A stretch of 64,000 nt of DNA, taken from NCBI RefSeq assembly GCF_004151275.2, contig NZ_CP130821.1:2046001-2110000 (forward strand), read 5' to 3'. Below the pieces are notes generated by a model. That model was not told the origin of the DNA, did not search any database, and worked only from the letters and a program-made list of their open reading frames with translations. Positions within the stretch are counted from its first letter, which is position 1, and every line of letters starts with the position of its first letter. Positions 57,689 to 64,000 of the stretch are shown here, piece after piece. A program made the position numbers and the translations under genes. The stretch comes from Flavobacterium dauae. Its GTDB lineage: Bacteria; Bacteroidota; Bacteroidia; Flavobacteriales; Flavobacteriaceae.

Positions 57689-58213
57689 TTATGGTTGCGG
57701 TGTTTCCGGATCTGGTGTTTCTGGTTGTGCTGGTGGATACACTAAAGGAATTCTAAAAAACACGCCTTTATTAAAATTTACAACCGGTGTTTCTGTTAAA
57801 ACCAAAGTAGGATCAACGGGTACCATTTCTGCATAAAATGTTCCAGAAATTGTTCCAGGTGTTTGATTTTCTACCGGTTCTAACTTAATATACCCTTTTC
57901 CTGTTGAAGACGAAGTGCTGTAATGATAAACCGTATCATTCTCTACTTTAGAATACGTTGCAACATTATAATTATCTGTTCCTAAGGTATATTCTTTACC
58001 TAATTCATAGTCCTCTATAAATAAAGTAACATTTTCCGAATCGTTTGCACCAATAATTACAAGATCTCCATTATTAAAATTTGCAGTTATTTTTGTAGCA
58101 CGCCAAAAGTCATAACTTTTCATGGCTTCAAATGTAGGAGTATTTGTAGTTAATTCTTCTTCGCAAGACACTAGTGAAACTGCCATTAATGCAAATAAAA
58201 AGTATTTTTTCAT
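57689..58213 (-). CDS. Lipoprotein of unknown function with Pro-rich tail
   Basis: A 174-residue lipoprotein (signal ending in LVSC, then EEE). The mature part is beta-rich (WRATKITANFNNGDLVIIGAND, ITLKYxx-like strands, GTISGTFYAEM) and resembles the DUF6252-type lipoproteins that I recall from Flavobacteria, but this is not certain. The last 20 residues are Pro/Glu/Thr-rich. A TATTTTTG box (58248-58255, minus strand) precedes it. Confidence 0.72.
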   Translation of the reverse strand: MKKYFLFALMAVSLVSCEEELTTNTPTFEAMKSYDFWRATKITANFNNGDLVIIGANDSENVTLFIEDYELGKEYTLGTDNYNVATYSKVENDTVYHYSTSSSTGKGYIKLEPVENQTPGTISGTFYAEMVPVDPTLVLTETPVVNFNKGVFFRIPLVYPPAQPETPDPETPQP

Positions 58214-58369
58214 ATTTTGTTTAAATTCTGAATTCCATTGTTAAAAACAAAAATAGAATTTTTTATTTATAGCTGTTCATTTTTTTTAATAATTATTTAA
58301 CTTTTTTAAAATTTAACACATTAAGGCACATTTTTACCTTCTAAAAACAATTCATATAAAAAAAAGAAG

Positions 58370-58377
58370 TACTTTTG
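58370..58377 (+). promoter_or_regulatory. Probable -7 box of the rpsP operon
   Basis: TACTTTTG fits TAnnTTTG. No TTG is seen at the right distance upstream. Transcription would begin near 58384, leaving a leader of about 50 bases. Confidence 0.5.
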
Positions 58378-58399
58378 CACCTCAATTAATAAATAATTA

Positions 58400-58432
58400 T
58401 GAGGTCGGGTACCTCACTTAAATCAATTTAAG
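58400..58432 (+). ncRNA. Two adjacent hairpins in the rpsP leader (candidate autoregulatory element)
   Basis: TGAGGT (58400-58405) pairs with ACCTCA (58411-58416) around CGGGT, and CTTAAAT (58417-58423) pairs directly after with ATTTAAG (58426-58432) around CA. The second stem ends three bases before the rpsP ATG. Two perfect abutting stems in front of a ribosomal-protein gene suggest control by S16 binding, but this is inference. Confidence 0.55.
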
Positions 58433-58435
58433 ATT

Positions 58436-58963
58436 ATGTCTGTAAAAATTAGATTACAAAGACACGGTAAAAAAGGAAAACCTTTTTACTGGGTAGTAGC
58501 TGCTGATGCACGCGCTAAAAGAGATGGTAAATTCTTAGAAAAATTAGGAACTTACAATCCAAACACTAACCCTGCAACAATTGACTTAAACGTTGATGCT
58601 GCTGCAAAATGGTTATTTAACGGTGCACAACCAACAGATACTGCACGTGCTATCTTATCTTACAAAGGTGCTTTATTAAAACACCACTTAAACGGAGGTG
58701 TACGTAAAGGAGCTTTAACTCAAGAACAAGCTGATGCTAAATTTGCTGCTTGGGTAGAAGAGAAAGCAAACAAAGTTGGTGCTAAAGTTTCTGGATTAGC
58801 TGACAATAAAGCTGCTGCAAGAGCCGCTGCATTACAAGCTGAAAAAGAAGTAAATGCAAAACGTATTGCTGCTGCACAAGAAGCTAAAGCTGCTGCTGAA
58901 GCTGCAAATGCAGAAGAAGCTACTCCAGAAGTAGAAGAAAATACAGAAGAAACAGAAGCTTAA
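58436..58963 (+). CDS. rpsP: 30S ribosomal protein S16 with Ala/Glu-rich C-terminal extension
   Basis: The first 80-85 residues are a normal S16 ([41 protein letters not shown]). The remaining 90 residues, rich in Ala, Lys and Glu, are an extension that makes the protein 175 residues long against about 82 in E. coli. Long S16 tails are common in this phylum. It is the first gene of rpsP-rimM-trmN6. Confidence 0.98.
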
Positions 58964-58980
58964 TTTTAAAGCGATTTTAA

Positions 58981-59505
58981 ATGCGTAAAAAAGATTGTTT
59001 TTATTTAGGTAAAATCGCAAAGAAATTTAGTTTCAAAGGCGAAGTCTTGATCTTTTTAGATACAGACGAGCCCGAATTGTACACAGAATTGGAATCGGTG
59101 TTCGTTGATATCAACGGACATTTGATTCCTTTTTTTATTGAAAAAACATCCCTTCACAAAGAAAAATTTCTACGTACACAGTTTGAAGATATGGATTCTG
59201 AAGAAGATGCAGACACCATTGTTGGAAAAGATGTTTATTTACCGCTTAGTATGCTTCCTAAATTAGAAGGAAACAAATTTTACTACCACGAAGTTGTTGG
59301 TTTAGATGCCATTGATCAGCGATTAGGCAATTTTGGGACTATTTTACGCATTGTAGATAACGGCGTACAAGCACTTTTTGAAGTACAAAAAGACGATGCC
59401 ATTATTTTAGTTCCTATGATTGATGAGTTTATCGTGGAAGTAAACCGCGAAAACAAATCAATTCTTTTCAATACTCCGGAAGGATTGATTGATTTGTATC
59501 TTTAA
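58981..59505 (+). CDS. rimM: Ribosome maturation factor RimM
   Basis: A 174-residue 16S rRNA-processing protein that helps assemble the 30S head and binds S19. The N-terminal domain has LGKIAKKFSFKGEVLIFLDTDEPE; the C-terminal PRC-barrel has EGNKFYYHEVVGLDA and VPMIDEFIVEVNRENKSILFNTPEGLIDLY. The pairing with rpsP 17 bases upstream is the conserved order. Confidence 0.96.
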   Translation: MRKKDCFYLGKIAKKFSFKGEVLIFLDTDEPELYTELESVFVDINGHLIPFFIEKTSLHKEKFLRTQFEDMDSEEDADTIVGKDVYLPLSMLPKLEGNKFYYHEVVGLDAIDQRLGNFGTILRIVDNGVQALFEVQKDDAIILVPMIDEFIVEVNRENKSILFNTPEGLIDLYL

Positions 59506-59556
59506 TTACACTTTATTTCCATTTAAAACAGTAATTTTGAAGTAAAATCTACTTCA

Positions 59557-60267
59557 ATGTTCCAATTTAAACAATTTACAATCAATCAAGATCGTTGTGC
59601 CATGAAAGTTGGAACCGACGGTGTTTTGTTAGGTGCTTGGACTCCTTTATACAACAATCCGTACCGCATTTTAGACATTGGTTCCGGCACCGGATTAATT
59701 GCCTTAATGCTGGTTCAGCGTTCTTTTGCCGAACAAATCGACGCCGTAGAAATTGACGAAGAAGCTTTTACACAATGTGTAGAAAACTTTGAAAACAGTC
59801 CTTGGGCTGACCGTTTGTATTGCTACAATGCCTCGTTAGAGGATTTTACGGAAGAATTTTTTGAAGAAACCACTTACGATTTAATTGTTTCGAATCCGCC
59901 TTTTTACTCTGAAAACTATTCCTCTGGCGATGAGAAAAGAGATCAAGCTCGATTTACAGAATCTTTACCTTTTGAGCAATTAATCGCTTGTACAGAAGGT
60001 TTACTAAGCGAAAACGGAATTTTATCTGTCATTATTCCTTATAAAGAAGAAGCAAATTTTATTAAACTAGCTGCTGAATACGGTTTGTATCCTTTTAAAA
60101 TTTGTCGTGTTCAAGGAACTCCAGAATCCGAAATAAAACGTTCTATGCTGGCTTTTACTCGAATTCCTGCTGAAATCGACCTTAAAAAATTGATTATCGA
60201 AACACAACGACATCAATATACCAATGAATACATCGATTTGACCAAAGATTTTTATTTAAAAATGTAA
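59557..60267 (+). CDS. trmN6: tRNA1(Val) adenine-37 N6-methyltransferase
   Basis: A 236-residue SAM-dependent methyltransferase that methylates A37 of tRNA-Val1. Visible motifs are ILDIGSGTGLIALML (SAM-binding motif I), AVEIDEEA, and the N6-adenine catalytic motif NPPFY. FKQFTINQDRCAMKVGTDGVLLGAW is the family start. It closes the rpsP operon and is followed by a terminator. Confidence 0.92.
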   Translation: MFQFKQFTINQDRCAMKVGTDGVLLGAWTPLYNNPYRILDIGSGTGLIALMLVQRSFAEQIDAVEIDEEAFTQCVENFENSPWADRLYCYNASLEDFTEEFFEETTYDLIVSNPPFYSENYSSGDEKRDQARFTESLPFEQLIACTEGLLSENGILSVIIPYKEEANFIKLAAEYGLYPFKICRVQGTPESEIKRSMLAFTRIPAEIDLKKLIIETQRHQYTNEYIDLTKDFYLKM

Positions 60268-60309
60268 TTTTTTTATTTCTACATCTTTCCAAAAATCTAA
60301 AAATATTTT

Positions 60310-60338
60310 AAGTCTATCTTTCTGATGGACTTTTTTTT
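60310..60338 (+). terminator. Rho-independent terminator after trmN6
   Basis: AAGTCTATC pairs with GATGGACTT (one G-T pair) around TTTCT, followed by T8. Confidence 0.8.
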
Positions 60339-60424
60339 ATTCTATTATTTTTATTTAAACAGAAAATTATTCCATTTTAAATATCAGAATAAATCAAATT
60401 ATAGAATATTTTTCTTAAAAAACC

Positions 60425-60454
60425 TTGTTTTTAGAAAACTGTTTCATACATTTG
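60425..60454 (+). promoter_or_regulatory. Bacteroidota-type promoter of the methionine operon
   Basis: TTG at 60425-60427, a 19-base spacer and TACATTTG at 60447-60454 match the consensus. Transcription would start near 60461, about 17 bases before the leader peptide. Confidence 0.8.
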
Positions 60455-60477
60455 TCGTCGAATCAGATTAAAAAGTA

Positions 60478-60540
60478 ATGAACAATATAGTTAAAAATCA
60501 ACAAATGGTAATGATGATGATGCACAAAGCGTCGCGATAG
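60478..60540 (+). CDS. Methionine-rich leader peptide
   Basis: A 20-codon frame, MNNIVKNQQMVMMMMHKASR, ends in TAG at 60538-60540. Five Met codons lie in a six-codon stretch (60505-60522, ATG GTA ATG ATG ATG ATG), against a Met frequency of about two per cent in ordinary genes. It sits between a consensus promoter and a hairpin pair that ends in a U-run. The peptide itself probably has no function: the ribosome stalling on the Met codons would sense charged tRNA-Met. Because the frame ends just before the antiterminator arm, it fits the classical attenuation layout. Confidence 0.85.
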   Translation: MNNIVKNQQMVMMMMHKASR

Positions 60541-60541
60541 T

Positions 60542-60600
60542 CTATACCTTAAAATTAAATATGATTGATCCTTTAGGTATAGCCTGAAGGATTTTTTTTT
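60542..60600 (+). promoter_or_regulatory. Transcription attenuator of the methionine operon (antiterminator and terminator)
   Basis: Antiterminator: CTATACCT (60542-60549) pairs perfectly with AGGTATAG (60575-60582). Terminator: ATCCTTTAGG (60568-60577) pairs with CCTGAAGGAT (60583-60592, one G-T pair) and is followed by nine T. The arms at 60575-60577 are shared, so the two structures exclude one another. A ribosome at the leader stop covers the first arm, allowing termination. A ribosome stalled on the upstream Met codons leaves it free, so the antiterminator forms and the operon is transcribed. Confidence 0.83.
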
Positions 60601-60622
60601 GAAATAAAATAGTAAAAAAATT

Positions 60623-61915
60623 ATGAGTACACCAAAATTTTCGACCCAAACTTTACACGCAGGTCACAATGTAAAAGAAACTTTAGGAACACGTGCGGTT
60701 CCAATTTATCAAACAACTTCTTATGTTTTTGAAGACGCAGACGATGCTGCCGAAAAATTCAATTTAACAAAACCGGGATATATTTATACTCGATTAAATA
60801 ATCCTACAAATCAAATCTTAGAAGAACGTTTAGCCGCAATCGAAGGCGGAATTGGTGCTGTGGTAACTTCTTCCGGAACTTCTGCTATTGCAACCACTTT
60901 GCTTACCTTATTAAAAAGCGGAGATCACATTGTAGCTTCAAGCAGTTTATATGGCGGAACCTACAATTTATTGCATGTTACCTTACCGCGTTTTGGAATT
61001 ACAACCACTTTTGTGGATCCGGATGATGTAACGAATTTCGAAAACGCCATTCAAGAAAACACGCGTGCTATTTTTGGAGAAAGTCTAGGAAATCCAAAAT
61101 TAGATGTTTTAGATATTGAAGGAATTGCCGCTATCTCGAAAAAACACCGCATTCCGTTTATTGTAGATAATACAGTGGCGACGCCATATTTATTAAATCC
61201 GATTGCGTACGGCGCCAATATCGTAATTCACTCTTTAACAAAGTATATCACAGGAAACGGAACATCTTTAGGTGGAGCTATTATTGATGGAGGAAACTTT
61301 GATTGGAGCAGTGGAAAATTCCCTGAATTTACAGAACCTTCTCTGGGATATCACGGATTAATTTATCACGAAGCATTAGGAAACGCTGCTTTTATCGCAA
61401 AAATAAGAATTGAAGGTTTACGTGATTTAGGAGCAGCTTTAAGTCCTTTTAATGCTTTTCAGATTATTCAAGGTTTAGAAACTTTAGATATCCGCATTCA
61501 AAAACACAGCAGTAATGCATTGTTGTTGGCTAAATGGTTACAAAATCAAGAAGAAGTTGCTTGGGTAAATTATCCGGGATTGACAGATCATAAAGATTAT
61601 GAAAAAGGGCAAAAGTATCTTTCTAAAGGTCAAAACGGATTGTTGACTTTCGGTTTAAAAGGCGGATTTGAAGCTGCAAAAACAGTTGTAAATAATTCCA
61701 AACTTTTTTCATTATTGGCGAATATCGGCGATACGAAATCATTAATTATTCATCCAGCTTCAACCACACACCAACAATTATCAAAAACCGAACAAATTGC
61801 AACAGGAGTTACTCCAGATTTAATTCGAGTTTCGGTAGGTTTAGAAGATATTTCGGATCTACAAAACGATTTAAAAGTTGCCTTTTCAAAATTAACAGCC
61901 AATATCAGTATATAA
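60623..61915 (+). CDS. metY: O-acetylhomoserine sulfhydrylase (aminocarboxypropyltransferase)
   Basis: A 430-residue PLP enzyme that makes homocysteine directly from O-acetylhomoserine and sulfide. The PLP Lys is Lys207 in HSLTKYITGNGTSLGG. The start FSTQTLHAGH, YTRLNNPT and the long C-terminal AGNxS-type insert (TEPSLGYHGLIYHEALG) favour MetY over MetB/MetC. It heads the operon behind the Met attenuator; the next gene starts two bases after its stop. Confidence 0.94.
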   Translation: MSTPKFSTQTLHAGHNVKETLGTRAVPIYQTTSYVFEDADDAAEKFNLTKPGYIYTRLNNPTNQILEERLAAIEGGIGAVVTSSGTSAIATTLLTLLKSGDHIVASSSLYGGTYNLLHVTLPRFGITTTFVDPDDVTNFENAIQENTRAIFGESLGNPKLDVLDIEGIAAISKKHRIPFIVDNTVATPYLLNPIAYGANIVIHSLTKYITGNGTSLGGAIIDGGNFDWSSGKFPEFTEPSLGYHGLIYHEALGNAAFIAKIRIEGLRDLGAALSPFNAFQIIQGLETLDIRIQKHSSNALLLAKWLQNQEEVAWVNYPGLTDHKDYEKGQKYLSKGQNGLLTFGLKGGFEAAKTVVNNSKLFSLLANIGDTKSLIIHPASTTHQQLSKTEQIATGVTPDLIRVSVGLEDISDLQNDLKVAFSKLTANISI

Positions 61916-61917
61916 TT

Positions 61918-62889
61918 ATGTGTTTGCAATCGATTGTAATTTCACCGTCCGAAATAGGCTTTAATTCGCCAAAAAACTTTAATCTCTCGTATCAAATTTT
62001 CGGAAAACCACTAGGCATTGCTCCTATTGTATTAGTGAATCATGCACTTACCGGAAATAGTTTGGTTTCAGGAACTTCGGGTTGGTGGAATCAATTGATT
62101 GGAAAAAACTTAACCATTAATACCGAACGTTTTACCATTCTTGCTTTTGATATTCCCGGAAATGGTTACGACAATAAAATCGAAAATCTAATTACAAATT
62201 ATAAGGATTTTAGCACTAAAATAATCGCACAATTGTTCTGGAAAGCCTTGGAGAAATTAAACATTTCAGAATTATTTGCCATTATTGGTGGAAGTTTAGG
62301 CGGAGCAATTGCTTGGGAAATGATCTTTCTTCAACCAAATAAAATCGAATTATTGATTCCGATTGCGTGTAATTATAAAGCCTCGGATTGGTTAATTGGT
62401 AATGTTTTAGTTCAGGATTCTATTTTAAATCATTCATCAAATCCTATTGAAGATGCTCGAATGCACGCAATGCTTTTGTACAGAACGCCCGAATCTTTTC
62501 AAGCAAAATTCCAAAATAAATACGATGATTCACACCAATCTTTTCAAGTAGAAAGCTGGTTAAATTATCACGGAAAAGCTTTAAAAGATCGATTCAAACT
62601 CGATTCATATAAATTAATGAATCATCTTTTAAAAACCATTGGTCAAGATATTTCGAAAGACGATTTCAACAATTTCCTTCAAAATACCAACACTAAAATT
62701 CAAATAATTTCGGTGAATTCAGATTATATGTTCACAGAAAAAGAACAAAATAGAACCTATCAATTTATAAAAAAACACTATCCAAATATACAATACAGCA
62801 TCATAGAATCGATTCACGGACACGATGCTTTTTTAATAGAATACGAACAATTAGATCAAATTTTAAAAAAACATTTTAAAAAAACATAA
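61918..62889 (+). CDS. metX: Homoserine O-acetyltransferase-like alpha/beta hydrolase (MetX)
   Basis: A 323-residue alpha/beta-hydrolase-fold enzyme that probably acetylates homoserine, giving the MetY substrate. The MetX hallmarks are NHALTGNS, the nucleophile elbow GGSLGGAIAWE, the acid SDYMF and the His in HGHDAFLIE. It is a little shorter than the classical enzymes. It lies between metY and thrA with gaps of one or two bases, so the three genes form one transcript. Confidence 0.9.
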   Translation: MCLQSIVISPSEIGFNSPKNFNLSYQIFGKPLGIAPIVLVNHALTGNSLVSGTSGWWNQLIGKNLTINTERFTILAFDIPGNGYDNKIENLITNYKDFSTKIIAQLFWKALEKLNISELFAIIGGSLGGAIAWEMIFLQPNKIELLIPIACNYKASDWLIGNVLVQDSILNHSSNPIEDARMHAMLLYRTPESFQAKFQNKYDDSHQSFQVESWLNYHGKALKDRFKLDSYKLMNHLLKTIGQDISKDDFNNFLQNTNTKIQIISVNSDYMFTEKEQNRTYQFIKKHYPNIQYSIIESIHGHDAFLIEYEQLDQILKKHFKKT

Positions 62890-62890
62890 C

Positions 62891-64000
62891 ATGAAAATTA
62901 TAAAGTTTGGCGGAAAATCATTGGCAACGCTGCACAAAAACGCCCATTTATTCCAAATCATAGAAAAAAACTTGAATTTATCGGCACTGATTATTGTGGT
63001 TTCGGCAATAGGAAACACAACCGATTTATTGTTAGAATTATTACAAAAAGCGAAAAATCAACTTCCTTATAATGATACGTTAGAAGAATTAAAGAGATTG
63101 AATTTTTATCCAAAAATTGATACCGAAGAGCATTTTAAGTTGATAGAAAACATTTTGCAAGGCGTTTCGCTTATTCAGGATTTTAGTCCAAAAGTACAAG
63201 ATTTGTTAGTTGCACAAGGCGAATTAATCAGTTCAAAAGTAGTAACTCAGCTTCTTTTAAATCAAAATTTACAGGCAACTTTCCTAAACAGTACACAGCT
63301 AATTAAAACCGATGCTTATTTTACAGCAGCAAACGTAAACGAAACATTGACCGAAATCGAAATTCAAGACTTTTTACAGAGATATTCAAACAACAAATTG
63401 ATTGTTTTAGGCGGATTTATTGGAAGTACGACAGAAAACGAAATCACAACTTTAGGAAGAAACGGAAGCAATCTTACCGCTGCATTATTCGCGAAATACG
63501 CAAATGCCGAAGAATTTTTAAACTTTACGCACGTTGACGGAATTTACACCGCAAATCCGGAATGGGTAGCTTCTGCCAAACGAATTGAACAATTAAATTA
63601 CAGCGAAGCTAACGAATTAGCAACTTTTGGAGCGTCAATTCTTCATGCAAAAACCATTGTTCCGTTAATTGAAAAGAAAATTCCTTTACGAATTTTAAAT
63701 ACCTTGAATCCTGAAAGCACGGGAACATTAATTTCTGCCGAACCAACGCCAAACGGAGTAAAATCGTTAACGGTTCTTCAAAATGTTGCCTTAATTAATT
63801 TTCATGGAAAGGGTTTGTTTGGAAAAGTAGGTGTCGATGCTCGAATTTTCAATGCGTTGGCAAAAAACAACATCAGCGTAAGCGTTATTTCTCAAGGTTC
63901 GTCTGAACGCGGATTGGGATTTGTTGTAAATGATACTGAAGCTACTGTTGCAAAAGAACTTTTAGAACAAGAATTTCAGCACGATTTTTATACAAAAGAT
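62891..64000 (+). CDS. thrA: Aspartate kinase, probably fused to homoserine dehydrogenase (partial, 3' end outside window)
   Basis: The frame starts at the ATG at 62891 and stays open to the window edge (370 codons). The kinase signature KFGGKSLA opens the protein; FTHVDGIYTANPE and FGASILHAKTIVPL are conserved kinase parts. The last 100 residues are an ACT-type regulatory domain (ALINFHGKGLFGKVG, VSVISQGSSERGLGF). In Flavobacteria this gene is usually a bifunctional aspartokinase/homoserine dehydrogenase; the second domain is outside the window. It supplies homoserine for MetX. Confidence 0.88.
   Translation, partial: MKIIKFGGKSLATLHKNAHLFQIIEKNLNLSALIIVVSAIGNTTDLLLELLQKAKNQLPYNDTLEELKRLNFYPKIDTEEHFKLIENILQGVSLIQDFSPKVQDLLVAQGELISSKVVTQLLLNQNLQATFLNSTQLIKTDAYFTAANVNETLTEIEIQDFLQRYSNNKLIVLGGFIGSTTENEITTLGRNGSNLTAALFAKYANAEEFLNFTHVDGIYTANPEWVASAKRIEQLNYSEANELATFGASILHAKTIVPLIEKKIPLRILNTLNPESTGTLISAEPTPNGVKSLTVLQNVALINFHGKGLFGKVGVDARIFNALAKNNISVSVISQGSSERGLGFVVNDTEATVAKELLEQEFQHDFYTKD

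Follow-up and report, generated by a model that had tools for sequence, protein, structure and literature searches.

A Met-codon leader and terminator ahead of the metY operon in Flavobacterium: a probable ribosome-mediated attenuator and its relatives

How could a cell signal a shortage of methionine through the Met codons of a leader peptide, when translation of that leader must itself start with methionine? This question is posed by the DNA ahead of metY in the window (the whole 64-kb stretch of the Flavobacterium chromosome analysed here), where a short Met-rich reading frame is followed by a terminator. Methionine genes are known mainly for control by SAM riboswitches, T-boxes and repressors, and leader attenuators are familiar from the trp, his, thr, ilv and leu operons of Proteobacteria. 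A sequence-only reading of this DNA had proposed a methionine attenuator, and the comparisons described below support that interpretation. We consider it highly probable that the leader is a classical ribosome-mediated transcription attenuator reading charged Met-tRNA; from the sequence we infer that the leader is translated, that ribosomes stall within it and that readthrough depends on methionine.

The preceding gene ends at 60267, upstream of the element, whose parts are collected in Table 1. The promoter TTG-N19-TACATTTG, which fits a Bacteroidetes-type consensus, was found base for base as the sequence-only reading had described it, and its account of the leader frame was likewise exact, with Met at codons 10, 12, 13, 14 and 15 (60505–60507 and 60511–60522) and hence five Met in six codons. 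It had also placed the stop codon one base before the antiterminator arm and a run of nine T at the close of the second hairpin, and both are there. A possible protector pairing, GGTA/TACC, would enclose the Met-codon region together with a small hairpin in the ViennaRNA fold. The claim of two mutually exclusive hairpins needs qualification: the 8-bp antiterminator does overlap the inner terminator stem and loop, but it takes only the inner AGGT of the terminator 5' arm, plus the loop and one base beyond, and not the whole arm. When each was folded alone, the terminator hairpin had an energy of −15.4 kcal/mol and the antiterminator hairpin −9.4 kcal/mol.

Table 1. Positions of the leader element and of the genes behind it (numbered from the first base of the window).
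Feature	Position	Strand	Details
Promoter, presumed Bacteroidetes-type, TTG-N19-TACATTTG	60425..60454	+	TTG 60425–60427, 19-nt spacer, TACATTTG 60447–60454
Leader peptide ORF MNNIVKNQQMVMMMMHKASR, 20 codons	60478..60540	+	ATG 60478, TAG 60538–60540
Regulatory Met block (M V M M M M), where a ribosome is predicted to stall	60505..60522	+	
Possible protector (1:2) pairing GGTA/TACC	60506..60548	+	inferred; ViennaRNA fold −11.5 kcal/mol
Antiterminator 5' arm CTATACCT	60542..60549	+	8 bp with 60575–60582
Antiterminator 3' arm AGGTATAG	60575..60582	+	common to inner terminator stem and loop
Intrinsic terminator	60567..60600	+	hairpin 60567–60593, nine-T tract 60592–60600
metY, O-acetylhomoserine sulfhydrylase, first gene controlled in the proposed model	60623..61915	+	TIGR01326, 636.5 bits (cut-off 495.1)
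metX-like homoserine O-acetyltransferase	61918..62889	+	top matches to MetX models, under equivalog cut-offs
thrA, bifunctional aspartate kinase/homoserine dehydrogenase	62891..64000, continues past window	+	PRK09436, 757 bits (cut-off 726)

The genes said to be under control, metY, metX and thrA (product of 800 aa in L253), do follow the leader, but the operon is larger than had been claimed. Past the window, and in the same direction, lie genes for a metZ-like sulfhydrylase, under the cut-off of its best model, and metH and metF, both above theirs. The gene order metY-metX-thrA-metZ-metH-metF is that of a six-gene methionine operon reaching beyond the window, and the sequence suggests that the transcript may extend to metF.

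How far could such an arrangement arise by chance? With both strands of the 64 kb counted, there is a single place, 60505–60522, that has at least five ATG in six codons. Among the 695 small ATG ORFs of the window (8–60 codons), 11 reach four or more Met/Cys in ten codons and one reaches five or more; there are 50 terminator-like sites, and the leader frame MNNIVKNQQMVMMMMHKASR is the only Met/Cys-rich small ORF within 60 nt before one of them. When the 50-nt region was shuffled, 54 of 5000 versions equalled the 8-bp arm match, as did 8 of 1275 other 50-nt windows; taken alone the match is only moderately unlikely, and the case therefore rests on comparative evidence. Folded as a whole, the 191-nt leader does not stand out (z −1.42). 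Matches to ATGATGATGATG number seven in the window's genome, at five places. None of the other four was counted as a leader: three lie within coding genes, one of them metH, and the fourth lies between two opposite-strand genes, the nearest terminator-like site being 92 nt further along.

We then compared 149 Flavobacterium metY upstream regions (a part of the metY places found; one genome gave two), counting Met and Cys codons in the small ORFs of the last 520 bases, with reverse strands and dinucleotide shuffles as controls. At least five Met in ten codons were present in 91/149 upstream regions, 0/149 reverse strands and 0/447 shuffles, and at least five Met or Cys in 124/149, 1/149 and 2/447 respectively. 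The next amino acids in the same test were Lys (15/149; shuffles 43/447), Asn (6/149; 2/447) and Cys alone (5/149; 0/447). In 141/149 regions an intrinsic terminator is preceded by an ORF rich in Met/Cys (four or more of ten codons), at a median distance from stop codon to terminator of 28 nt (5–95%, 21–35 nt), and the best arm ends between −14 and +10 of the stop codon (5–95%). Two leader elements stand in tandem in 47/149 regions; eight (L017, L135, L160, L161, L175, L178, L215 and L224) have no leader by the same rule. These counts are not independent because the genomes are related, and where several ORFs fitted in one region the most Met/Cys-rich one was chosen.

Of the codons after the start in 188 leaders, 19.7% are Met and 14.0% Cys; 12 of these leaders, including that of the window, are without Cys. 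In relatives, Cys codons would share the sensing role. The motif TAnnTTTG occurs within 90 nt ahead of 22/190 leaders, compared with 121/1900 shuffles, which gives no strong support for a common promoter motif. Beyond the main sample, a leader was found at 7/33 further metY loci: three in Flavobacterium, and one each in L021 (a different family of the order), L053 (Capnocytophaga), L046 (a Saprospiraceae MAG) and L054 (a Bacteroidetes MAG). L031, a contig listed under the name of a Bifidobacterium breve MAG, carries leaders identical to those of Flavobacterium L006 and is evidently misbinned or misnamed.

In the closest relative, Flavobacterium sp. xlx-214 (L028), whose metY is 97% identical, the leader MNNIVKNQMVMDMMMRKASR equals that of the window in length and has five Met codons after the start. 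The two leaders differ in a way most readily explained by the loss of one codon and the gain of another, both in frame. Identity is 59/60 from the stop codon to the T-run (60541–60600), 49/63 in the ORF and 105/131 upstream, where 26/30 bases of the promoter stretch are kept.

If the region around the stop codon serves as an antiterminator arm, it should pair with its own terminator. In 161/167 distinct elements it pairs with the terminator 5' side at −9 kcal/mol or better, as against 228/556 when terminators of another type are swapped in, 215/279 with terminators of the same type and 253/835 with shuffles; the corresponding mean energies are −12.1 (own), −8.4, −11.1 and −7.8. Similarly, the longest perfect arm run is at least 7 in 100/178 own pairings, 217/451 within-type swaps, 148/973 swaps with other types and 20/712 shuffles. 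Within-type swaps hardly differ from own pairings, since the arm is common to relatives of a type. Covariation was examined separately in types A and B.

Among 64 aligned type A elements, seven of the nine terminator pairs show double changes. The type A arm, GCAG, is read in two main frames, 33/60 and 25/60, so that it is the RNA rather than the peptide that seems to be kept. The MAFFT alignment A1 shifts the two arm registers by one base, and the type A arms were therefore counted as two subsets (60/64 rows; four with another arm were dropped). The observed antiterminator pairing of the PQ subset (n = 33) was equalled in 0/1000 dealings of the terminator arm, and that of the SAE subset (n = 27), which hardly varies, was not significant (189/1000). 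In type B (n = 79), 99.4% of the terminator is paired and six pairs are doubly changed (0/500 shuffles); 93.4% of antiterminator cells are paired, compared with 38–71% in slid versions, and the column pair 32–102 is GU in 58, AU in 12 and GC in 8 rows, with none broken. The type B antiterminator covariation score was equalled by 1/500 shuffles and its number of double-change pairs by 48/500. Inspected by eye, the stretch from stop codon to terminator in type B elements often retains additional small inverted repeats (alignment A2, columns 42–88; GAAAGAT/AATCTTT and TATAGTT/AACTATA), possibly pause or protector hairpins.

The sequence-only reading had staked its case on conservation of the Met codons and of both stems in relatives, and it withstood that check. 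The leaders are kept at 141 of the 149 metY regions and the antiterminator pairing is kept too; covariation is clear in the terminator, but the sequences point to only modest covariation in the antiterminator.

Leaders of this kind are not confined to metY. At E 0.01, and with weak matches counted, covariance models of types A and B match 101/121 and 108/121 Flavobacterium genomes. From the matches we picked 60 stretches, mostly away from metY, and applied a slightly less strict rule (three or more Met/Cys per ten codons, 8–50 nt before a terminator, pairing of −8 or better), by which 43/60 have a leader and 17/60, including L314 of the window's genome, have none; weak model matches are mostly without one. 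Taking as gene name the first BLAST match obtained for the three ORFs that follow, we found behind the leaders, besides metY, metX, cystathionine synthase/lyase, metH, cysH, cysD, cysE, a TonB-dependent receptor and osmC-like genes; two thrA names were set aside at only 27–28% identity.

The codons appear to follow the pathway. Cys makes up a median of 0.70 of Met plus Cys codons in leaders of cys genes (nine gene loci, range 0.43–0.88) and 0.33 in those of met genes (19 gene loci, range 0–0.67), a difference with a one-sided Mann–Whitney p of 0.0004 when relatedness is ignored and with leaders at metY, the TonB receptor, osmC, thrA and one unassigned gene excluded. The metY leaders are intermediate (0.42), and some metX leaders are as Cys-rich as those of cys genes. 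At L337, L338 and L342, cysE operons lie behind leaders, for example the Cys-rich MKFTCCNKCACMGIISAGVCCCI, and a cysteine synthase-like (PLP enzyme) gene is next in each. The window's genome holds a second element, L314:1404–1537 (G000:C1:2154403–2154536; type A model, E 3.9e-5), in which the ORF MQQFIKHTRNCKMWKFSRRGFVCTKL and a terminator precede an OsmC-like gene; it has too few Met/Cys codons for the leader rule and is perhaps decayed or differently tuned.

Do riboswitches account for any of this control? Between 58000 and 64000 no Rfam family, the T-box included, scores above its gathering threshold, and near 60400–60650 there are only two sRNA matches, far below threshold. No SAM aptamer model matches ahead of metY in the window, and Bacteroid-trp RNA (RF01692) has no match in 58000–64000 or in the window's genome. 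That genome was searched for SAM-I and SAM-II; with the stricter filters SAM-I was not found (0), and a SAM-II riboswitch lies at L374:1501–1559, ∼56 bases ahead of metK. If the attenuator model holds, SAM synthesis would be read by SAM and methionine synthesis by Met-tRNA. Unlike the leaders, SAM-I and SAM-II riboswitches sense SAM directly, but SAM-I, too, can precede metY: in other Flavobacteriaceae it does so at 5/15 loci scanned, none of the five having a leader, and the eight scanned loci with leaders have no SAM-I ahead of metY. By the stricter-filter search SAM-I is present in 42/60 relatives, so both systems coexist in the genus, and in L005 and L108 the two stand within one cluster.

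With the ribosome footprint used to place the covered and the free arm, we propose the following scheme. Transcription would start behind 60454 and a ribosome would translate the 20-codon leader. When methionine is ample, a ribosome at the stop codon at 60538 would cover the arm at 60542–60549, the terminator would form and transcription would end before metY. If charged elongator Met-tRNA became scarce, the ribosome would wait in the Met block, leaving the arm free to pair with 60575–60582 and open the inner terminator stem, so that polymerase could enter metY-metX-thrA-metZ-metH-metF. Equilibrium folding gave the terminator at all four modelled ribosome positions, the antiterminator being the weaker hairpin and blocking only part of the terminator stem; the switch must therefore rest on co-transcriptional kinetics, as in known attenuators.

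The scheme returns us to the initial question. Methionine starvation should also limit fMet initiation, and the leader could then stay untranslated, in which case the possible protector pairing would keep the operon off. We think it rather likely, although with less assurance than for the attenuator itself, that much of sulfur amino acid metabolism in Flavobacterium is under a regulon whose leader-peptide attenuators act in cis. What each operon senses would be set by its proportions of Met and Cys codons, often through two leaders in series; the attenuator at metY would stand where several neighbouring genera have SAM-I, and the window would hold a pure-Met form. Such a regulon would need to tolerate the effect of methionine shortage on initiation, which it might do, for instance, if elongator tRNA became partly uncharged, and the leaders responded, well before initiation failed.

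Other explanations need to be weighed against transcription attenuation. The leader might be translated and control exerted at translation of metY, through coupling or reinitiation, or the nascent peptide might arrest the ribosome in response to something besides charged Met-tRNA. Leader peptides can indeed act at translation, and cysteine genes of Mycobacterium smegmatis are described as being under translation attenuation in the portion available of one source (PMC13236596). Nevertheless we regard these readings as improbable, given the intrinsic terminator found between ORF and gene, at narrow spacing, in 141/149 metY regions; an arrest peptide fits poorly with the variability of residues other than Met and Cys and with a type A arm that is read in two frames.

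We give still less credence to the idea that the 5' region forms a riboswitch of unknown class, or an RNA bound by a protein, together with a terminator, and that the Met-rich frame is there by coincidence. The SAM-I riboswitches ahead of metY at five of the 15 Flavobacteriaceae loci provide a precedent, but no Rfam family passes threshold in 58000–64000, and the Met/Cys enrichment is codon- and strand-specific and tracks the pathway. It is equally doubtful that the ORF encodes a functional microprotein, for example one that binds metal, with a terminator that merely bounds its own short transcript. Met and Cys are metal ligands, and tandem short ORFs each with a terminator do resemble small independent genes; against this, the other residues vary, the conserved end switches frame, a complement of the terminator lies at the stop codon, and the assigned genes behind leaders are mostly sulfur amino acid genes.

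As an attenuator, the element resembles the trp, his, thr, ilv and leu leaders of Proteobacteria and that of mycobacterial ilvB1 in several features by which these are known: cognate codons clustered in a short ORF (five Met in six codons, conserved in relatives), an intrinsic, U-tract terminator between leader and first gene that covaries in relatives, an antiterminator exclusive with it (with modest covariation, one subset not being significant), an arm that by its position would lie under a ribosome at the stop codon and be free on stalling at the cognate codons, and a biosynthetic operon behind it (metY-metX-thrA-metZ-metH-metF) that makes the amino acid sensed. It differs in that the codon is Met, also the amino acid that starts proteins, and in that relatives mix Met with Cys and often stack two elements. 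A trp leader attenuator of the same phylum is Bacteroid-trp RNA. Cys-codon leader peptides, reportedly described by Canestrari in 2020, serve the sulfur amino acid pathway: those of Mycobacterium, Propionibacterium and Bifidobacterium cys/cbs operons also have a codon run in a short upstream ORF ahead of sulfur amino acid genes. In these leaders, however, the codon is Cys rather than Met, and the Flavobacterium leaders, by contrast, have intrinsic terminators.

As far as the available portions of the sources go, mycobacterial ilvB1 is a case of ribosome-mediated attenuation (PMC13236596); Cys leaders are reported in Actinobacteria with no methionine case among them, and no conserved terminator hairpins were found in the Mycobacterium Cys-leader regions (PMC1262725); Bacteroid-trp RNA (RF01692) is likely cis-regulatory (PMC2864571); and Bacteroides sORFs are reminiscent of leader peptides (PMC7366714). 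In Flavobacterium psychrophilum there are clues for leader peptide attenuation ahead of amino acid operons, in a paper whose main text, as available, does not contain the word methionine (PMC9723704). Among the matches listed, no title or abstract opening named a methionine leader attenuator. As far as searched, then, the class of mechanism is known, and methionine as the sensed amino acid, the mixed Met/Cys leaders and the tandem forms are new.

Flavobacterium offers a natural series, from pure-Met to Cys-rich and from single to tandem leaders, that makes the question of Met sensing directly testable, and the series suggests that, on one and the same gene, lineages trade sensing of a metabolite (SAM) for sensing of charged tRNA. 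Looking for Met/Cys leaders is also a simple way to find genes connected with sulfur, transporters of unknown substrate among them. In three genomes, a TonB-dependent receptor gene close to metY (L315:6363–9398, with counterparts in L325 and L353) has a Met/Cys leader attenuator of its own, making it a candidate importer of sulfur compounds.
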